This document shows positions 5,152-17,484 of a stretch of DNA of 64,000 nucleotides, piece by piece. Location of the stretch: contig JAPPJZ010000074.1 in the NCBI GenBank assembly GCA_028874365.1, forward strand, positions 1-64,000. Reading direction: 5' to 3'. Source of the DNA: Chloroflexota bacterium. GTDB taxonomy: Bacteria; Chloroflexota; Dehalococcoidia; Bin125. The position numbers were made by a program, and so were the translations under genes. The notes under the pieces are model-generated. The model was given only the letters and a program-made list of their open reading frames with translations. It was not told the DNA's origin and did no database searches. Each line of letters opens with the position of its first letter. The first letter of the stretch is position 1.

Positions 5152-8073
5152 ATGCCGTCAACGCTCTCCGCCGCCGAGTTCGCCGCGAAATGGCGCGGCA
5201 ACGCCCGCCGCGAGAGCGCCTCCTCCCAGGAACACTTCATCGACCTCTGCCGACTGCTCGGCGTTCCGACCCCCGCTGAAGCCGATCCCTCGGGCGAGTC
5301 CTACACCTTCGAGGCCGGTGCCGAGCGGCTGAGCACCGGCGGTCAGGGCTGGGCCGACGTGTGGAAGCTCGGACACTTCGGCTGGGAGTACAAGGGCGAC
5401 CGTGCCGATCTCGCGGTCGCCTACCGACAGTTGCTCGACTACCGCGAGGACTTGGAAAACCCGCCCGCGCTGGTGGTCAGCGACATGGACCGCATCCAGG
5501 TCCACACCAACTTCACCAACACCCGACCACGCGTCCACGAGATCACGCTCGAAGACCTCGCCGAGGGCGGCGACCGGACCGCTGAGGCGCTGCGCGTCCT
5601 GCGGGCCGTCATGGTCCAACCGGAAGACTTACGCCCGCGCCAGACGCCGGACGAAGTCACCCAGGCCGCCGCCTCGCGCTTCGCCGACCTGGCGCGTTCG
5701 ATGCAGGATCGCGGAAACGAGCCCGAACAGGTCGCCCATTTCCTCAATCGCGTGCTCTTCTGCCTGTTCGCCGAGGATGTCGGCCTGCTGCCGCGACGCC
5801 TGATGACCGACCTGGTCGAGTCATGCAGGGACGACCCCGCCGAGTTCACCAGTGGACTCGCCAATCTGTTTCGGCTGATGTCAGACCGCGAAGCCGGCCG
5901 ACTCTTCGGTACCCAGCGCGTTGAGTGGTTCAACGGCGGACTGTTCGACGACGACTCCGTGCTGCCCTTCACCCGCGAGGAGCTGCGCACCGTCGCCGCC
6001 GCCTCCAGTCTCGACTGGTCGCAGGTCGAACCCGCCATCCTCGGCACCCTCTTCGAGCGCGGACTCGACCCGGCCAAGCGCGGACAGCTCGGCGCTCACT
6101 ACACCGACCGCGAGAAGACCCTGATGGTCGTCGAGCCCGTCGTCATGACGCCGCTGCGCCGCGAGTTCACCGCAATGCAGGAGCGCGTTTCAGAGCTGAT
6201 GAAGGATCGCCAGCCCAGCCCGCTCACCCGCGATGGCAAGCGACGGGCCAACCTGCCCAAATGGGAGCGGGACGCCGAGGCCGAGTGGCGCGCCTACCTC
6301 CAGCGCCTGCGCGACGTGCGCGTGCTCGACCCGGCCTGCGGCTCCGGCAACTTCCTCTACGTCACCCTGCGCCTGCTCAAGGACCTCGAACAGGAGGCCA
6401 TCCGCTGGGGCGCCGAGCGACTGCGCATCACCGGCGAGTTCCCCCGCGTCGACCCGCACAACGTGCTCGGCATCGAGATCAACCCCTACGCCAAGGAACT
6501 CGCCGGCGTCGCCATCTGGATCGGCCACATCCAATGGATGCTCGACCACGGCTATGGCTTCCCCCGGGACCCAGTTCTCCAACCGCTCGACAACATCGAA
6601 CTCCGGGACGCCATCCTCGCCTACGACGAAGACGGCAATCCTGTGCCGGCGATCTGGCCGGAGGCGGAGTTCATCGTCGGCAATCCGCCGTTCTTGGGCA
6701 AGGCGAAGCTCCGCGAGTCTCTGGGGGACGAGTATGTGGAAGCTCTCTTTAGGGCTTGGGGTTCGCAAGTTCCCAACAGCGCGGATCTGGTCTGTTACTG
6801 GCACGAACTCGCCCGGCAAGTCATTGCCGTTGGTTCGTCAAGACGCGCTGGGCTGCTGGCGACAAACAGTATCCGAGGCGGCGCGAATCGTGTGGTTCTC
6901 GAAGCGATCAAGGGCAGTGGTGAGTTGTTTCTGGCATGGTCGGACGAACCGTGGATTGTTGAAGGAGCGGCAGTTCGTGTCTCGATCGTCGCGCAAGACT
7001 CCGGAACGGAGACTGACCGAAGTCTCGATGGTAAGGCAGTGCCATTCATCAACTCTGATCTCACGACCGGAGCCGACCTAAGCACTGCACGGTCTCTCGA
7101 TGAGGGTGCCAAGCTGTGTTTCGAGGGAGTCAAGAAGGCCGGATCTTTCGACATCGCCGGTGAGGCGGCAAGGGCGATGTTGATGCAGCCCTCGAATGTC
7201 AAGGGACGGCTGAACGCGGACGTCGTCGTTCCTTCCATCAATGGCTGGGATGTCACTCGGCGCCCTCGTGATGTGTTCATCATCGACTTTAGGGACATGC
7301 CTCACTCTGATGCGGCTGGCTACGAGACGCCGTTCTCACATGTCGAAGAGCATGTCTTGCCGTTTCGCGCAAAGAACCGCGAGAAGCGAAGCCGCGAACT
7401 CTGGTGGCAACATCAGCGTCCTAGACCACTGATGCGTACGGCACTGGAACCCTTCAGCAGATTCATTGTGACCCCGGCAGTCGCCAAGCACCGCGTCTTC
7501 GTCTGGCTCTCAAGGCCGCAACTGCCTGATCACCAGCTGTACGTGTTTGCCCGCGACGACGACTATGCCTTTGGCGTTCTCCACTCCCGAGCGCACGAGC
7601 TCTGGTCGCTGCGCATGGGCACCTGGCTCGGCGTCGGCAACGATCCGCGCTACACGCCAACCACGACCTTCGAGACCTTCCCCTTCCCCTGGCCGCTCAA
7701 CACCCCCGACGACGCGCTGACCCCGCAGCAGCGCGAGCACCGCGACGCCATCGGCGCGGCGGCCAAGGAGCTGGACGACAAGCGCCGACTCTGGCTCAAC
7801 CCGCCCGAGTGGGTCCGCGAGGTCCCCGACGTCATCCCATCCCTCCCCAACCGCCTCCTTCCCGTCGACGATGAAACCGCCGAGCAGCTCAAGAAACGCA
7901 CTCTAACCAACCTCTACAACCAGCGCCCCACCTGGCTCGACAACCTCCACCGAACCCTCGACGGCGCCGTCTTCGCCGCCTACGGCTGGCCCGCCGAGAT
8001 CGAGGACGAACGAATCCTTGAACACCTCCTTACCCTCAATCTGGAGCGGGCTGTCGCTCACGAGGTGAAGTAG
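5152..8073 (+). CDS. MmeI-like type IIL restriction-modification enzyme (nuclease-like N-terminus + N6-adenine MTase)
   Basis: 973 aa; motif I DPACGSGNFLY, motif IV NPPF; N-terminal WADVWKLGHFGWEYKG (D...ExK nuclease-like). Confidence 0.85.
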   Translation: MPSTLSAAEFAAKWRGNARRESASSQEHFIDLCRLLGVPTPAEADPSGESYTFEAGAERLSTGGQGWADVWKLGHFGWEYKGDRADLAVAYRQLLDYREDLENPPALVVSDMDRIQVHTNFTNTRPRVHEITLEDLAEGGDRTAEALRVLRAVMVQPEDLRPRQTPDEVTQAAASRFADLARSMQDRGNEPEQVAHFLNRVLFCLFAEDVGLLPRRLMTDLVESCRDDPAEFTSGLANLFRLMSDREAGRLFGTQRVEWFNGGLFDDDSVLPFTREELRTVAAASSLDWSQVEPAILGTLFERGLDPAKRGQLGAHYTDREKTLMVVEPVVMTPLRREFTAMQERVSELMKDRQPSPLTRDGKRRANLPKWERDAEAEWRAYLQRLRDVRVLDPACGSGNFLYVTLRLLKDLEQEAIRWGAERLRITGEFPRVDPHNVLGIEINPYAKELAGVAIWIGHIQWMLDHGYGFPRDPVLQPLDNIELRDAILAYDEDGNPVPAIWPEAEFIVGNPPFLGKAKLRESLGDEYVEALFRAWGSQVPNSADLVCYWHELARQVIAVGSSRRAGLLATNSIRGGANRVVLEAIKGSGELFLAWSDEPWIVEGAAVRVSIVAQDSGTETDRSLDGKAVPFINSDLTTGADLSTARSLDEGAKLCFEGVKKAGSFDIAGEAARAMLMQPSNVKGRLNADVVVPSINGWDVTRRPRDVFIIDFRDMPHSDAAGYETPFSHVEEHVLPFRAKNREKRSRELWWQHQRPRPLMRTALEPFSRFIVTPAVAKHRVFVWLSRPQLPDHQLYVFARDDDYAFGVLHSRAHELWSLRMGTWLGVGNDPRYTPTTTFETFPFPWPLNTPDDALTPQQREHRDAIGAAAKELDDKRRLWLNPPEWVREVPDVIPSLPNRLLPVDDETAEQLKKRTLTNLYNQRPTWLDNLHRTLDGAVFAAYGWPAEIEDERILEHLLTLNLERAVAHEVK

Positions 8074-9395
8074 TGGCTGAACATTTCCTGAAGTTGAATG
8101 AACTGATGTTTCTCCCTCATGCCTTCAATGGCGACAGCACCAACACCGAGTACTCGCATCAGGCATAGGATGACGAGGTAGTACACGGAGTGACTCAGAA
8201 ACTGGCGCGGCGGTCGATACCGCTGGTAGGTGGACTTATCCTCTCCGTGAGCCACGTTGTTCCGCTCCTCCTTCACGACCTTGCTCCAGAGTTCTAGATC
8301 CCCAACCCAGTCTGTGAAGACATTGCCAGCCAGGTTGCCGAGATACTCAAGGCGTTGCCTGTACTCCATGTCAGCGTCTCCAGAGTGAATGCGGGCAAGA
8401 GCGTCGGCAGATCCCGCAACGCTGAGAAAGCGGGCGTCCACGAACTGAGCTGGCATGAACTGCATCGCTAGCGCTGACTGGATTATCACGTCGTATTCGG
8501 CGGAGAGCTCCAACCAGTTGCCGATCCCTTCTAGGCCGCCAAGATCGGACAGAGTGAAGAGCATGTCGAAGCGCTGCACGTCTCGTTCCGGGTATGAGGG
8601 AGGGTTATGGTCCCACCGCCGAAACAGCTCGAAGGCGATAGGGCGCTGCGTGCCATGCAAACCATCTTCGAGGTAGTCCGGGTGGCTGAGAAATGCTGAT
8701 TCGATGAGTTCGGGAGCATCGATCGCAAGAGACAGCAGATTGCGAATCGTGATTGCTCTCCCTATCAGGTCCTCTATGCGGCTAGGCCCAGAGGTCTCGA
8801 GCTTCAACACACAGCCATAATCCAGCCGCGCTTGTCGGGACGATGCTCCAGATATCTGAAATGTAGGTCGCAACGAAATCTCAGCGTCAGGATTCAAAGC
8901 CGGATCTTCCGTCGGCGGCCGATAGCTCAACCGGTACTCAACAAGCCTGCCGCTGCGTTCGTCGTAGTCGTGTTCTTCAACTGCTCTGGCGTAGTCTGCC
9001 CAAGAAGCCAAGTGTCTCGATTGAATGGCGATTGAGGTGACACCTGCAAGGTCTGACGGAGCCAAGTGAACGCCCTTTAGCAGCGCCTGGGCGAGAAACG
9101 TCTGGGATTGGAACACCCCAGGTAAGCGGTACTGGTAGTTGGAGGAACCGCAGCCGAGAAGAGTGTAGATTCCGTCTCCCGCGACGCCGTGAATCTGGCG
9201 TGCGGGAATGGGTACACCGGGTGTGGTATCGGTATCGGGGACATCGTCGAATGCCCCGGTCAGCGCTAGCTCGATCCCGGCTTGGGAATCGAAGCGCAAG
9301 CGTCCTGGCACCTGGTGCTCGGGTGCGTCAGCGTCCCAGAATATTCCATTGGCATCAATCGTGGTCACCGCTGTCACCTCCTGAGAAAGTGGCAA
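8058..9395 (-). CDS. ApeA-like protein with C-terminal HEPN domain (anti-phage candidate)
   Basis: C-terminal KVVKEERNNVAHG contains RX4H HEPN signature; N-terminal beta-rich part resembles ApeA N-terminal domain. Confidence 0.7.
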   Translation of the reverse strand: MPLSQEVTAVTTIDANGIFWDADAPEHQVPGRLRFDSQAGIELALTGAFDDVPDTDTTPGVPIPARQIHGVAGDGIYTLLGCGSSNYQYRLPGVFQSQTFLAQALLKGVHLAPSDLAGVTSIAIQSRHLASWADYARAVEEHDYDERSGRLVEYRLSYRPPTEDPALNPDAEISLRPTFQISGASSRQARLDYGCVLKLETSGPSRIEDLIGRAITIRNLLSLAIDAPELIESAFLSHPDYLEDGLHGTQRPIAFELFRRWDHNPPSYPERDVQRFDMLFTLSDLGGLEGIGNWLELSAEYDVIIQSALAMQFMPAQFVDARFLSVAGSADALARIHSGDADMEYRQRLEYLGNLAGNVFTDWVGDLELWSKVVKEERNNVAHGEDKSTYQRYRPPRQFLSHSVYYLVILCLMRVLGVGAVAIEGMREKHQFIQLQEMFSHYFTS

Positions 9396-9836: not shown

Positions 9837-11141
9837 TCAGCCCCAGCGTGTTGGCATCTGATCCGCCGGCGTCTCCCAGCGGTCCATGCCCTTGAGCCAG
9901 GCGCTGCCGAGGTTTAGGCAGTAGTGCTCCATTTGGGTGCTGTGGATGTCTGGCTTCTGCTGAGCCAGTTTAAGTGCCCTTGGCCAGTTGGCAACCACAT
10001 CCCTAGTGAACCAGGCAAGCGCGACCAACGAGACCCGCTCGGCGTCGCTGAGACCCCACCACAGTTCACTGAGATGCTTCCCGGCCGGCGTCTCGGTGAC
10101 ATCGAGGTCCAAGTCCGCAGAGATGATGCGCAGCCCACCGCCGTTCGATGGGTGCGCGGCGATGCGTTTCCGCCACGCTTTCTGGACCTTGGCGTGGGCA
10201 GCATCCATTTCGATCACCTTCGCCCGCGAGATGCTGGGCGGCGGCTCCTTCATGCTCTGCAGGTGCCGAATGCGTTCCAGCTCCGCTTGCCTTTCCGCAC
10301 GCAAGGTCTTCAGCGCCTCACGGGGCTTGTCGACCTCCGGCTCTGGAATCGACCACAGGGGAAACGGCCAGTTGGCGAGCGGATCCGGCGAAGGCCGGTC
10401 CTCTTCCTGAACCGCCAGAGCCTTCAAGTCCTGCCGCACGGCGGACAGCGTTTCGTTGATCTTGGCGAAGAGGTCCGAGACTTGCATCGCCTCTGGATCG
10501 ATCGGCTGCCAGATGGTCGCAACGCGCGCGAGGCCTCGCTCGGTCGTGATTCCCTGTGCCCGCAAAGACAGCGCGACCCCGACGCAGTTCGACCTGCGAT
10601 ATCCCCCGATCGAGGAGTTGAAATCCTGGGGCGTCACCCAGTACGGGTCTTGGCCGCTTTGCTCAGACTCGGTGAGGTCCTGAACGAGGTCGACGTAGAT
10701 GTTCCGCTCCCGTTCGCTCTTGATCTCGTTCTGGAAGATCCAGTCTACGTCCAGTGGTCCGTCGAGGTAGAACGGCTGCATCTCCTGTTCGATGTAACCA
10801 GCCAGTTCAGGAAGATCGACCGGTCGCCATTCACAGGCGCGGACGTAGATGCCCTTCCACTTGTGGTCACGCCACCGCTTGAGAGTGCTGGCCCGGTCGC
10901 TCGGACGGGACTGCGGGCAGCGAACTGCGTCGATCAGAATCAGCACCTTGGCCGCTTCCTCGTCAGCGAAACTCCCCAGCAGCGAGGCGATCGATTCGTC
11001 CCCATCGCGTGAGGCGCGCTGTGCGGCCGCGTCAAGCCGTCTGATGTTGGCGGCGAGGTGATCGATGCCGCTTGCCACGATACGCCGGAACGACTCCGGG
11101 TTGCGGTTGCCCAAGTCCGAGACTGCGATGGATTGAGTCAC
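9837..11141 (-). CDS. AbiV-like (HEPN-type abortive infection) protein with long C-terminal extension
   Basis: N-terminus ...DGDESIASLLGSFADEEAAKVLILIDAVRCP...LKRWRDHKWKG resembles AbiV helical core (EE..K, DHK). Confidence 0.5.
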   Translation of the reverse strand: MTQSIAVSDLGNRNPESFRRIVASGIDHLAANIRRLDAAAQRASRDGDESIASLLGSFADEEAAKVLILIDAVRCPQSRPSDRASTLKRWRDHKWKGIYVRACEWRPVDLPELAGYIEQEMQPFYLDGPLDVDWIFQNEIKSERERNIYVDLVQDLTESEQSGQDPYWVTPQDFNSSIGGYRRSNCVGVALSLRAQGITTERGLARVATIWQPIDPEAMQVSDLFAKINETLSAVRQDLKALAVQEEDRPSPDPLANWPFPLWSIPEPEVDKPREALKTLRAERQAELERIRHLQSMKEPPPSISRAKVIEMDAAHAKVQKAWRKRIAAHPSNGGGLRIISADLDLDVTETPAGKHLSELWWGLSDAERVSLVALAWFTRDVVANWPRALKLAQQKPDIHSTQMEHYCLNLGSAWLKGMDRWETPADQMPTRWG

Positions 11142-12424: not shown

Positions 12425-13738
12425 TTGGGGGCGGCTATGCCGGACTTTGAAGCGTACGTGGCCTCCATTGAGGACAGGGCATCCGCAGCCCTCGTGTCTG
12501 CCCCTGAAGGGTCTGTTCTATACGGCAGCGACGATTTGCTTGATGGGCAAGTGAGCCACAAACTCCGCGAGGCCATTCCGCTGGGCGTTCGTCGCGAACG
12601 TGGAGCGTTCTTCACCAGTTCGGACCTGAGGTCTGCGGCGTTAGTTGCTTGGCCGGGTACCGACGGCCCAAGCGGCCCGGTGCTCGATCCGGCAGTGGGC
12701 GCCGGAGATCTCCTCATCGAAGTCGCGCAGAGCTTGCCCGTCTTCACCGGCCTGGACGCCACGTTGGATTTCTGGGGTGCGCAGCTTCATGGTCGTGACA
12801 TTGAGCCCTCGTTCGTTCGATTGGCAAAGGCACGGCTTGCGCTGCTCGCGATCTCGCGCGGGGCGATGCCGTCGGCCGGTCCCCCGCTGCGATTGGACGA
12901 CCTGTTTCCGGGCATCGCGGTTGGAGACGGCCTTGACGTGTTGAACGACGGTTGGGAAAACGGACACATCTTGATGAATCCGCCGTTTGGCTACCACAGT
13001 CCGGAGTTGGCTGTCGAATGGGCGAAGGGGCGAACTAACATGGCCGCGTCGTTCCTGGCGAGTGCGGTCGAGCATTCAACGGCCGGGACGTGTCTAACAG
13101 CGATCTTGCCTGAGGTCATCCGGACGGGTTCGAGGTACGGCCGGTTGCGCGCGTTCGTCAGTGAGCGCCTTCGAGTGATCGGAGTCGAGCCGTTCGGCAG
13201 GTTTGACTCCTGGACAGACGTGGACGTGTTCACCCTTAGGGGCGTCGTCACGGAGGCCACTGTCGAAGAGGCTTCGGGGTCAGTTGAGTGGTGGCAGCGA
13301 TCGAACGGCAGGAGATTAGGCGAGCTGTTTGACGTCTCAGTCGGTTCAGTTGTCCCGCATCGAGATGAGGAGTCGGGTGAAGACCATCCTTATCTGCAGG
13401 CTCGGCAGATTCCTCTTGGAGGCGAGTACGATGCATCTGAGGCGGAACAGCGGCGCTTCGTCTCTCGTCTGTTCGAACCACCGTTCGTCGTGGTTCGGCG
13501 AACCTCACGTCCTGCCGACCGAGCCAGGGGGGTAGGGACACTGATTGAGGGATCAGTCGGCGTTCTCGTCGAGAATCACCTACTGGTGTGCAAGCCCAAG
13601 GACGGCTCGATCGACTCCTGTCGTCGCGCCGTCGCCGTGCTTCGGTCTCCCGAGTCACGAGCGTGGCTAGATCAACGAATCCGGTGTCGCCATCTCACCG
13701 TTGGCGCGCTCCGCGAGATGCCATGGCTCGACAGATGA
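12425..13738 (+). CDS. N6-adenine DNA methyltransferase (HsdM/type IIG-like with TRD-like C-terminus)
   Basis: DPAVGAGDLLIE motif I; ILMNPPFGYHSPE motif IV; start likely 12437. Confidence 0.8.
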   Translation: MGAAMPDFEAYVASIEDRASAALVSAPEGSVLYGSDDLLDGQVSHKLREAIPLGVRRERGAFFTSSDLRSAALVAWPGTDGPSGPVLDPAVGAGDLLIEVAQSLPVFTGLDATLDFWGAQLHGRDIEPSFVRLAKARLALLAISRGAMPSAGPPLRLDDLFPGIAVGDGLDVLNDGWENGHILMNPPFGYHSPELAVEWAKGRTNMAASFLASAVEHSTAGTCLTAILPEVIRTGSRYGRLRAFVSERLRVIGVEPFGRFDSWTDVDVFTLRGVVTEATVEEASGSVEWWQRSNGRRLGELFDVSVGSVVPHRDEESGEDHPYLQARQIPLGGEYDASEAEQRRFVSRLFEPPFVVVRRTSRPADRARGVGTLIEGSVGVLVENHLLVCKPKDGSIDSCRRAVAVLRSPESRAWLDQRIRCRHLTVGALREMPWLDR

Positions 13739-15786
13739 ATACGGCAACATTTCGCTTCTCGACAGACATTCTGCGGCGACTGGGGGAGGAGCTCATCACG
13801 AGTTTCGACCAGGGAATCGTAGAACTCGTGAAGAACTCCTACGACGCGGATGCAACCAAGTGCACCATTCGACTTGCGGGTACGAGCGTACCTGGCGGGA
13901 CGGTGGTCATCACAGACGACGGGGACGGAATGTCGAGCGAAGATGTCCTCGATGGTTGGTTGGTCCTTGGTCGCTCCCGGAAGGTGCCAGGCGAGCGAAC
14001 TGCCCTAGGTCGGTTACCGGCTGGGAGCAAGGGGCTAGGCCGGCTTGGTGCCCTGAGACAGGGTCAGCAAGTCCTACTAACCACAAGATCGCGCGATGAA
14101 CCCAAAACGGAGCATTCGACTTGCATCCGCTGGGCTGATTTCGCATCTCACGAGGTTGTTGAAGACGTCCTGCTTCCCATAAGGAGCTCAACGTCGGAAG
14201 GGGAACATGGAACGCGAATAGAGATTCGCGGGCTGCGTTCCTGCGTCAGCGAGCGGGAAGCCAAGGCGCTCGCACGTGAGCTCCTGTTACTCGCTGATCC
14301 CTTTGGCGATCCAGCCGGATTCGCCCCAACGCTGATTGCACCTGAATTCGAGGAGCTTGAAGCGCTCGTTCAACGGGCATATTTCGACGACTGTGAGTAC
14401 CGGTTAGTCGCTGTTCTCGACGATTCAGGATGCGGGAGTGCCAAGGTCTTCGATCAGTCCGGGAGGGTTCGCTGGGCGAGTCGCGACGGAGAACTCGGTG
14501 GGCCGTACGGCGCGCCCGTGACAAAGTTCGAGCTCTGGGTCTTCTTGCTCACGAGGGAGTCCTTCAGTGGTCGAGCAGCGACTATCAGTGAAGTCAGGAG
14601 CTGGCTGCGCGAGGTCGGAGGGGTTCATCTGTATCACCGAGGCCTTCGCGTGCGACCGTATGGCGATCCTGGGCATGACTGGTTGGACATGAATCTGGCT
14701 CGGGCGCGAGGTCCGGAGCTTCGCCCATCAACCAACACTTCGATCGGCCGGGTTGAGGTGCTCGATGAAGGTCACGAGCTGCAGCAGAAGACGGACCGTT
14801 CTGGGTTCATTGAGAGTGACGCGTTTCGGGAGCTTCGCAGATTCGCTGATGATGCACTCGACTGGATGCACGACAAGCGCATCAAGGAACGGGAACATCG
14901 TCGCGAGACTCGGAAGCGCGAGGTTGGCGACCGTGTATCGGCTGCTCGCGACCAGCTCGACCAGGCAGTCGGTCAGCTGCCGCTGGATTTGAGACATCCA
15001 ATCGAACGTGCGACTCGAAGGCTGGAGGAGGCCAGAACTTCTGAGCAAGAGCAAATGAAGGAAGAACTAGGGCTCTATCAGACCTTGGCCAGCGTTGGCA
15101 CAGCGGTTTCCGTCTTCGCTCATGAAATCGAGGGGCCGGCGACCAACCTTACGACCTCTCTGGCCACGGTGGAACGTAGAGCGCGACAGGCATTGCTGGC
15201 GCGATATGACTCCCTGCTCAGCCGGCCGGTTGAGGTCGTCAAGCAGTCTGCCGAGCTGACGGCCAGGTTCGCGACACTGCCACTGGGACTGCTGAAGAGA
15301 AGCAAGCGGAGACGCACGATACTGGACGTCAACGCTTCAGTCGCCGCCACGGTACGGCTGTTCGAACCGTACTTGCGAGACGCGCAGATCAAGACTGTCT
15401 GCGAGTTCTGCGATGAGGAAGCGAAGATCTTCGGATCGCTTTCGGCGATCGAGGCGATCGTGTCCAATCTGATCACGAACTCAGTGAAGGCTTTTCGACG
15501 GCCCGAGATCCCGTTGGCCGAGAGGAGGCTCAAGATTCGAACGACGATTGAGGGGGACTCAGTCTCGATCTCGGTGCTCGACAATGGACCGGGAATCGAC
15601 CGGCGGTTAGAGGACAGAATCTGGCTTCCTGGAGTCACCAGTGACGAGAACGGAACCGGTCTCGGTCTAGCGATTGTTCGCGACACTGTAGCTGATCTCG
15701 GTGGCAAAACACATGCAATTCGTAGGGGCGAACTGGGCGGAGCCGAGTTTATCGTGACGTTGCCGCTGAGGAGAGACGCGTCGTGA
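13735..15786 (+). CDS. double-GHKL protein: N-terminal Hsp90/MutL-like ATPase + C-terminal histidine-kinase-like ATPase
   Basis: Two Bergerat folds: VELVKNSYDADA/DDGDGM/GSKGLGRLG and IVSNLITNSVKAF/DNGPGI/NGTGLGLAIV; HAHEI-like segment SVFAHEIEGP; ATGA overlap with upstream gene. Confidence 0.85.
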   Translation: MNTATFRFSTDILRRLGEELITSFDQGIVELVKNSYDADATKCTIRLAGTSVPGGTVVITDDGDGMSSEDVLDGWLVLGRSRKVPGERTALGRLPAGSKGLGRLGALRQGQQVLLTTRSRDEPKTEHSTCIRWADFASHEVVEDVLLPIRSSTSEGEHGTRIEIRGLRSCVSEREAKALARELLLLADPFGDPAGFAPTLIAPEFEELEALVQRAYFDDCEYRLVAVLDDSGCGSAKVFDQSGRVRWASRDGELGGPYGAPVTKFELWVFLLTRESFSGRAATISEVRSWLREVGGVHLYHRGLRVRPYGDPGHDWLDMNLARARGPELRPSTNTSIGRVEVLDEGHELQQKTDRSGFIESDAFRELRRFADDALDWMHDKRIKEREHRRETRKREVGDRVSAARDQLDQAVGQLPLDLRHPIERATRRLEEARTSEQEQMKEELGLYQTLASVGTAVSVFAHEIEGPATNLTTSLATVERRARQALLARYDSLLSRPVEVVKQSAELTARFATLPLGLLKRSKRRRTILDVNASVAATVRLFEPYLRDAQIKTVCEFCDEEAKIFGSLSAIEAIVSNLITNSVKAFRRPEIPLAERRLKIRTTIEGDSVSISVLDNGPGIDRRLEDRIWLPGVTSDENGTGLGLAIVRDTVADLGGKTHAIRRGELGGAEFIVTLPLRRDAS

Positions 15787-16496
15787 TCGCGCCGGGATCC
15801 TTCGTGGCTGTCATAGATGACGAGCAACTGAACGCCGACACCACAGCAGGTGTCGTATCGGACGCCAGTCTGAAGCCGGTCGTAATCAGCCGGGATGCCG
15901 GTCAGTTCCCCAGCGTGAGTGATCTTCTGGAGATGGTTCAGAGTGCCCGCTGCGAGGCGGTGATCTGCGACCATCGACTGAGCACAAAGGGCCTCGCACA
16001 GTTCACGGGTGCACAGTTCGTCTCGCAGTTGTATCAGCAGCACATTCCCGCTGTATTGCTTTCCACCTTCGCGGCCATCGACAAGGACGATTCGATCCGC
16101 CGATATCGCTCGGAGATTCCTCTCGTCATGGCGCGCTCAGAATTGGCTCCAGAGAGCTTGGTCAAAGGGCTGGAGTATTGCCGCGACGAACTTGAAGGCC
16201 ATGTTGCGCCGGAGCGACAGCCGTGGCGAACGCTCGTCCGAATCGTTGATGTGCTGCACGATGTCAATCAGGGCGTGGTGGACGCAGTTCTGCACAACTG
16301 GAATCCGAATAGTGCCGTCCGCTTCCCTCTCGAGGTCGTGGACAATCCTGAAGTTGCGTCCGCGCTCCAGGCCGACTTCAGCGGCGAGCTCCGAGTGTTC
16401 GCACGGGTCAATATCGGATGTCGAGACGAGAGCGAACTATTCTTTGGGGGCTTTGAGGTCGCGCCTGAACCGGATGTAGAAGCTCTTGGCACCTAG
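15783..16496 (+). CDS. response-regulator-like (degenerate receiver) protein
   Basis: FVAVIDDEQLNADT, AEVICDHRL-like AVICDHRLST, AVLLSTFAAID; GTGA overlap with upstream gene. Confidence 0.65.
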   Translation: MIAPGSFVAVIDDEQLNADTTAGVVSDASLKPVVISRDAGQFPSVSDLLEMVQSARCEAVICDHRLSTKGLAQFTGAQFVSQLYQQHIPAVLLSTFAAIDKDDSIRRYRSEIPLVMARSELAPESLVKGLEYCRDELEGHVAPERQPWRTLVRIVDVLHDVNQGVVDAVLHNWNPNSAVRFPLEVVDNPEVASALQADFSGELRVFARVNIGCRDESELFFGGFEVAPEPDVEALGT

Positions 16497-17484
16497 AGCG
16501 TGGATCTTGGACGTAGGGCACGGAAACTCGACTGTCATCGAGGACGCTGGATGCGTGTCCATTGTCGACGGCGGAAGGCGAGACGCACTGATTCGCTTCC
16601 TCCTGGAGCGCGGCATCACCAGAATCGACAGCGTGATCGTTTCGCATGCGGACGCTGACCATTGCGGCGGAATCTCCCTGCTACTTGCAGATCCGAGATT
16701 TCGGGTCGGTGAGGTCTTCGTCAATCCCGACCAGCGCCAGACCGGCACTTGGCGCGATTTCCTGTCAGTGATGATCGACGCCAGAGAGCGCGGAACCCAG
16801 TTCCGGCTTGCCTTGAACGACATCGATGCCGCTGATGTTTGCTGTGGAGACAGCCGGCTGGAAGTTCTCGCACCGTCTCAAGACCTCGCGGCTCGAACAG
16901 CGGTCGGGACCACGGCGGACGGCAAGCGACTAGATGCCAATACAATTTCCGCCGTCGTTCGCGTTTGGGCGAGAGAATCACCGCGCCTTCTGCTCACCGG
17001 CGACATCGATCGGATCGGATTCGACGACCTGGTCGCTCACCGTCCAGAACTGAACTCGGATGTGCTCGTCTTCCCTCATCACGGAGGTCTGCCTCGTGGC
17101 GCGGACCCGGAGTCCTTTGCCGAGGCTGTTGTCCGCGCAGTCGATGCGCAGCTCGTCGTGTTCTCGAATAGCCGGGGCCAGTACGGGACTCCCCGTCCGG
17201 AAATTGTGGCGACGGTACTGCGTCGAGGAGGCGATGTCCACATCGCGTGTACACAGTTGTCCCAGCTTTGCGCGGCTGATGCCCCCGAACCGGAGGTTGG
17301 CGCAGAGGACTGGTTGCCGATGGCCGCCGTCTCCCCGTCGAGATGCGCTGGCACGCTGATGATCTCTCTTGCAGAGAGCTTCTCTTACAGGCCCTCGCGG
17401 ACCAGCCATTCTGCGTTCATCAGCAACCATGCCCCGACGGCCTTGTGCATGCGTCAGCCCTTGCAAGGAAGTGCGAGCGGCTGA
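16486..17484 (+). CDS. MBL-fold metallo-hydrolase (ComEC C-terminal-like)
   Basis: TTG start overlapping previous gene by 11 bp; WILDVGHGNS, SHADADHCGG (HxDxDH), LLLTGDID, VFPHHGG. Confidence 0.8.
   Translation: MAPRAWILDVGHGNSTVIEDAGCVSIVDGGRRDALIRFLLERGITRIDSVIVSHADADHCGGISLLLADPRFRVGEVFVNPDQRQTGTWRDFLSVMIDARERGTQFRLALNDIDAADVCCGDSRLEVLAPSQDLAARTAVGTTADGKRLDANTISAVVRVWARESPRLLLTGDIDRIGFDDLVAHRPELNSDVLVFPHHGGLPRGADPESFAEAVVRAVDAQLVVFSNSRGQYGTPRPEIVATVLRRGGDVHIACTQLSQLCAADAPEPEVGAEDWLPMAAVSPSRCAGTLMISLAESFSYRPSRTSHSAFISNHAPTALCMRQPLQGSASG

Follow-up and report, generated by a model that had tools for sequence, protein, structure and literature searches.

A mobile operon joining a DNA methyltransferase, a MORC-like ATPase-histidine kinase, a receiver and a ComEC-type hydrolase is a candidate phosphorelay-gated anti-phage system

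Organization of the operon

We analysed a stretch of 64,000 nucleotides from a member of the Chloroflexota (contig JAPPJZ010000074.1, positions 1 to 64,000; hereafter the window), taken from a draft genome of 3.1 Mb. Four open reading frames (ORFs) in the ORF list of the window follow one another on the forward strand at 12425-13738, 13735-15786, 15783-16496 and 16486-17484, and the sequence itself displays the overlaps between them: ATGA at 13735-13738, GTGA at 15783-15786 and 11 bp at 16486-16496. An earlier note, made from the sequence alone, had described a four-gene, fully overlapping operon at this site; the ORFs, the overlaps and the motifs that it quoted (DPAVGAGDLL, NPPF, IDDE, CDHRL and HADADHCGG) were all found in the window where it had placed them. 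Promoter and terminator scans gave no signal above that of shuffled sequences.

The first gene (12425-13738) is predicted to encode an N6-adenine-type DNA methyltransferase with a C-terminal region resembling a target-recognition region, as judged from the ORF, Pfam, profile searches and motifs. Translation probably starts at ATG 12437, giving a protein of 433 residues, rather than at TTG 12425. Motif I, DPAVGAGDLL, lies at 12686-12715 and NPPF at 12977-12988. The Pfam match to N6_Mtase is weak, and profile searches returned BseCI and type I M subunits. The patterns DP..G.GDLL and NPP[FY] and a C-terminal RIRCRHLT are kept in nearly all members of the family; we read RIRCRHLT as a putative part of the target-recognition region. 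With motifs I and IV conserved, the operon would share with type II restriction-modification systems the presence of a DNA methyltransferase.

Predicted properties of the kinase, receiver and hydrolase

The second gene (13735-15786) encodes a protein of 683 residues, and its start is ATG 13735, despite an open frame that reaches further upstream. The earlier claim that this protein carries two complete Bergerat ATPase folds was borne out by Pfam, with matches to HATPase_c_3 (5.6e-21) and HATPase_c (3.7e-22). The N-terminal ATPase spans about 13780-14142, the C-terminal HATPase_c about 15445-15771, and the phospho-accepting His463, in the motif FAHE, is encoded at 15121-15123. In a profile search against the Protein Data Bank (PDB), the N-terminal part of the family profile matched MORC2 and MORC3 (2.5e-6) and the C-terminal part ZraS and other histidine kinases (6.5e-25). 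In a fold search, the AlphaFold model (pLDDT 79, with the H-box region poorly modelled) matched ZraS-type kinase cores as well as MORC2 in complex with DNA, the latter match extending across about 450 columns (TM-score 0.34 by query length). The profile and model matches thus point to an N-terminal GHKL plus S5-like ATPase module of the MORC/paraMORC kind. Every intact kinase copy retains His463 and the N-boxes, and the G boxes are almost as well conserved. Sequence and model together predict a fusion of a MORC-like DNA-clamp ATPase with the core of a canonical histidine kinase.

The third gene (15783-16496) encodes a receiver protein of 237 residues, recognized by its Response_reg match (PF00072, E-value 0.003), its AlphaFold model and its invariant aspartates. 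The receiver domain occupies residues 1-137 and contains Asp12, Asp13 and the phospho-acceptor Asp63, encoded at 15969-15971. All three are invariant across the receivers; in every intact copy the H-box His, the N-box Asn and the receiver aspartates of a two-component pair are present. The switch Thr/Ser is kept in all receivers but one; the position of the switch Lys is mostly Arg, and otherwise Pro or Trp. The model has a pLDDT of 90.5, and its listed fold matches fall on the receiver part. No solved relative was found by fold search for the C-terminal beta domain (residues 145-226), and a transcription-factor type of receiver was rejected on the grounds of this domain. Since it has no recognized DNA-binding output domain, the protein probably does not act as an ordinary transcription factor. 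The sensing role that the earlier note had given it is not supported either; it is better regarded as the output of the relay.

The fourth gene (16486-17484) encodes a ComEC-type hydrolase of 332 residues with a metallo-beta-lactamase (MBL) fold, a predicted nuclease effector. It matches Lactamase_B in Pfam (4.3e-10) and ComEC/Rec2 structures in profile searches (1.8e-19). HADADH is encoded at 16645-16662 and HHGG at 17077-17088, and the HxDxDH motif, the bridging Asp and the HHGG motif are invariant in the family, so that the metal ligands known from the MBL of nuclease-protease modules are intact. Beyond the core, a C-terminal extension carries the invariant residues C255, C262, C287, H308 and C321. 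These Cys and His residues suggest an extra metal site, perhaps within a regulated or DNA-binding part. None of the four proteins shows a known restriction endonuclease fold, and the position of the nuclease is taken by the ComEC-type MBL. Taken by itself, the MBL domain of ComEC acts as a Mn2+-dependent DNase and cleaves circular DNA (PMC8579336). A related MBL in Hachiman is a protease-activated DNase, and AVAST, Lamassu and DRT contain counterparts of it (PMC12799240).

Conservation of the kinase, receiver and hydrolase genes

With the kinase as a query, we searched GTDB genomes, plasmids and IMG/VR contigs. The genome scan relied on conserved peptide patterns and returns close relatives only, so that the counts do not represent prevalence; several loci are metagenome contigs, and E-values of the locus searches are relative to the candidate stretches. 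Loci were found in Chloroflexota, Thermodesulfobacteriota, Pseudomonadota, Bacteroidota, Planctomycetota, Actinomycetota and Cyanobacteriota, as well as on three plasmids and prophage contigs. The kinase, receiver and MBL genes were adjacent and in this order in all 24 complete loci (24/24), usually overlapping or nearly abutting. Taking into account that the order is retained in other phyla at protein identities of about 30-45%, a chance arrangement can be excluded. The receiver as a query retrieved exactly the same three plasmids, and these also ranked first with the MBL; all eight close relatives of the MBL in viral contigs adjoin receiver and kinase genes where the contig reaches. An insertion sequence sits within the MBL gene of one plasmid copy, the kinase of one prophage copy is broken, and several copies lie in prophages.

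The nearest named match was a metagenome genome of the Dehalococcoidia (Chloroflexota), with proteins 77-83% identical and in the same order. Apart from the source genome, a kinase search of 14 congeners found the operon in one, indicating a patchy distribution. That congener (L009, G007:C81) also encodes another, distantly related dual-GHKL kinase, accompanied by a response regulator of 380 residues. Over 190 pairs, which are not independent and are used descriptively, the identities of the kinase, receiver and MBL correlate with one another (Spearman 0.54-0.73), and those of the methyltransferase correlate less with the trio (0.07-0.44).

Exchange of the methyltransferase

An orthologous methyltransferase lies directly upstream of the trio in most loci. 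In Lentzea it is found downstream and convergent. Instead of the usual enzyme, Geomonas carries another type II N6-methyltransferase (PADLOC MTase_II, 563 bits); the Geomonas kinase is 62% identical to that of a relative with the usual enzyme, and the two methyltransferases are 18% identical. A prophage copy (L095, 3194-8504) carries a C5-methyltransferase, convergent to the trio, in place of the N6 enzyme; its kinase and receiver are broken and its MBL intact. The methyltransferase (METHYLTRANSFERASE) is an exchangeable part of the locus. The co-conservation of all four genes, which the earlier note had proposed as a check, consequently holds for the trio, which recurs together, and not for the methyltransferase, swapped or absent in some lineages; for the same reason, strict self-marking by this particular enzyme, as the earlier note had proposed, is not a general feature.

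These observations raise the possibility that the kinase, receiver and MBL are the true system and that the methyltransferase is a passenger, or independent, travelling with several modules. Its absence in cyanobacteria, its convergent orientation in Lentzea and its replacement in Geomonas and L095 would agree with this, as would the presence of the same methyltransferase family beside two other modules (see below). Outside the cyanobacteria, however, a DNA methyltransferase stands directly beside the trio in every complete locus, even where it has been exchanged. That a neighbour of this kind is kept when swapped for an unrelated enzyme suggests a functional need for methylation, and we regard a passenger role as rather unlikely. 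Damage confined to the restriction half, with the methyltransferase intact (L029, L048, L049, L095 and L072), would be in keeping with the logic of restriction-modification, but this idea was dropped, as the cases are too few given the gene lengths and possible sequencing errors.

Sister modules beside the methyltransferase family

When plasmids and viral contigs were searched with the methyltransferase, three modules, A, B and C, were found adjoining the enzyme. Module A is the kinase-receiver-MBL set of the window. In module B, the methyltransferase is followed by a related dual-GHKL kinase, a receiver and an HNH nuclease, an order matching that of A (L054, L056, L059-L063, L071, L049 on a K. 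variicola plasmid and L048 on an R. phaseoli plasmid; these two plasmid copies have a split kinase). The HNH protein resembles PtuB of retron Ec78 (1.8e-6). Module C is a convergent pair of GmrSD_N (DUF262) and HEPN_MAE_28990 genes found in prophages (L055, L057, L058, L064-L067, L069, L070, L072, L076 and L078). Pairing was strict, A kinases always going with an MBL and B kinases with an HNH protein. Placed on the methyltransferase tree, the module labels require at least 5 changes, against 15.5 in shuffles; swaps between modules have occurred several times, but the labels still cluster. Other gene sets in which a different methyltransferase (N4/N6 or C5) precedes a dual-GHKL kinase and a gene in the receiver position were observed in L035, L040, L042 and L031, and the third proteins of L035 (440 residues) and L042 (414 residues) matched no Pfam family.

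As the methyltransferase family and the gene order are the same in module B and the fourth gene encodes an HNH nuclease, the MBL appears to fill a nuclease slot. The nuclease-effector role proposed for it in the earlier note is thereby supported, by its ComEC-type family and by this effector swap. The sister modules also bring up an alternative, namely abortive infection without DNA restriction, in which the phosphorelay would release the MBL as an RNase or nucleotide hydrolase and methylation would only set a threshold or be unrelated. The PtuB-like HNH protein of module B and the MAE_28990-type HEPN protein of module C are in line with this, RNases do occur among MBL enzymes, and the methyltransferase can be missing. 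However, the closest solved relatives of the MBL are the DNA-degrading domains of ComEC, and not RNase Z or beta-CASP enzymes, and within this MBL branch the defence protein that has been tested, HamM, is a DNase that leaves RNA uncut (PMC12799240). We consider abortive infection of this kind possible, at a fairly low probability.

Relationship to known systems

Searches with PADLOC, Pfam, NCBIfam and PHROGs gave matches at the level of domains only, and no library names the four-gene set, consistent with the earlier remark that it was not recognizable as a known system. Two-component-like elements with HEF_HK and Response_reg_2 domains, associated with C5-methyltransferases, were predicted by Bellieny-Rabelo et al. 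2021 (PMC8011034), a paper whose text contains neither the term lactamase nor MBL. They share with our operon a methyltransferase, a soluble kinase with an N-terminal HATPase_c_3 and a C-terminal HATPase_c domain, and an adjacent receiver gene, and the kinases are distantly but detectably homologous. In the loci that we fetched, however, HEF_HK kinases have about 1000 residues and contain PF19191, and the receivers have 550-620 residues and contain PF19192. PF19191 was not detected in the window kinase at E-values up to 0.1, with positive controls matching, and the window receiver matched only PF00072 (0.003), whereas controls matched PF19192 (1e-28 and 2e-13). With both defining domains absent and the controls matched, membership was rejected. 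No HEF_HK/Response_reg_2 members were found in Chloroflexota, in a search in which no control matched. The set had been put forward as an undescribed defence system; it is indeed unnamed, but the combination of a methyltransferase, a dual-GHKL kinase and a receiver is of a kind predicted in 2021. We found no paper on the MBL-containing set in the open-access literature, subscription papers and preprints lying outside this search. As far as could be found, the MBL set is new, and its general kind is known by prediction and experimentally untouched.

MORC-like ATPases were linked to restriction loci by Iyer et al. 2008 (PMC2292703). As in MORC/paraMORC proteins and in BbrUII and HgiDII, whose BbrUII model matches kinase residues 8-183 (3.2e-20), an N-terminal GHKL plus S5 module is linked to DNA methylation here. 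Unlike those proteins, the window kinase has no fused nuclease or helicase, and instead contains a histidine kinase core and has a receiver partner. With the MBL nuclease-protease pairs of Hachiman, AVAST, Lamassu and DRT (PMC12799240), the operon would share a separate nuclease gene for a ComEC-type MBL that a signalling partner restrains, but here that partner is a histidine kinase and receiver; Pfam detected no trypsin-like or other protease domain in any of the four proteins, and the matches of the window MBL to models of those defence MBLs are local and weak. In the sister operon, the fourth position is held by an HNH effector of the type known from Septu and retron Ec78 (PtuB); the operon of the window has an MBL there and lacks both an ABC ATPase and a retron. 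We also rejected an assignment to MADS, since the match to mad2 is local and weak.

Phosphorelay logic in defence is shared with Detocs, a two-component-like phosphorelay system whose main effector degrades ATP. Detocs is not known to include a methyltransferase or a MORC-like ATPase. No match named Detocs was returned by PADLOC, in a release whose content of Detocs models was not checked. Two-component genes have been noted in McrBC operons in the CoCoNuT paper (PMC11090510).

Genomic neighbourhood

Just upstream of the window operon, and outside it, are an MmeI-like type IIG restriction-modification enzyme (5152-8073, forward strand; PADLOC REase_MTase_IIG, 1.7e-293), a protein with ApeA_NTD and Apea-like HEPN domains (8058-9395, reverse strand; Pfam ApeA_NTD1, 3e-29; PADLOC candidate PDC-S58, 8.8e-21) and an AbiV-like HEPN protein (9837-11141, reverse strand; AbiV_defense TIGR04498, 34.3 bits against a cut-off of 27). 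Elsewhere, trio neighbours include DISARM DrmD (L019), SoFic (L016) and a gene annotated as the herA anti-phage helicase (L010). In Nostoc paludosum (L022, 3569-11645), a trio without methyltransferase is flanked by a TIR-pYEATS gene and by a Cap17-like ATP nucleosidase plus TIR gene. Ppl is a neighbour of a module B locus (L049).

The C-terminal half of the kinase is that of a canonical histidine kinase and many MBL hydrolases are metabolic, so an ordinary two-component regulator with a metabolic hydrolase, unrelated to defence, has to be weighed. Yet the searches revealed neither a classical sensor or membrane domain nor a DNA-binding output domain, and the genes are patchily distributed and associated with prophages, plasmids, defence islands and DNA methyltransferases. 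This explanation is very improbable.

Discussion

Our results make it somewhat probable that the operon is a mobile anti-phage system, restriction-like or abortive, gated by a phosphorelay. Within this frame, it may represent a new class of restriction, in which DNA that is foreign or unmodified would be recognized by a MORC-type DNA clamp and a His-Asp phosphorelay would then license a nuclease of the ComEC type, with interchangeable methyltransferases and, among the sister operons, either an MBL or an HNH protein as the nuclease; this assignment is a reasonable possibility, held with less confidence than the broader one. The N-terminal MORC-like ATPase of the kinase would engage foreign or unmodified DNA, and this engagement would switch the histidine kinase on, so that His463 autophosphorylates. 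The phosphate would then move from the kinase to Asp63 of the receiver, whose C-terminal domain may act on the translationally coupled MBL and release its nuclease activity, most likely against DNA. The methyltransferase, exchangeable as it is, would mark host DNA or set the threshold, keeping the kinase silent. In the activation of the MBL, the phosphorelay would take the role that a protease has in the related systems.

Several points weigh against this mechanism. No methyltransferase lies beside the trio in seven cyanobacterial loci, and no orthologue was found elsewhere in the six of these genomes that were searched. The unrelated methyltransferases in Geomonas and the prophage make a fixed sequence-specific readout by the kinase doubtful. 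As other residues, mostly Arg, stand in place of the switch lysine of the receiver, phospho-signalling may be atypical. PtuB-like effectors, to which the HNH protein of the sister operon belongs, can act on RNA; with the PtuB-like and HEPN effectors of the sister modules in mind, the substrate of the MBL, DNA or RNA, is the main uncertainty.

Restriction is usually seen as the cutting of DNA without a signalling step. If the restriction model is correct, a two-component phosphorelay would stand between recognition and nuclease, and MORC-like ATPase-kinase fusions, which have lacked a function since they were predicted near restriction genes, would gain one. Methyltransferases and nucleases that have been swapped around the relay in nature provide ready test pairs for asking whether the specificity of methylation or the kinase picks the target, and how a phosphorylated receiver may release an MBL nuclease.

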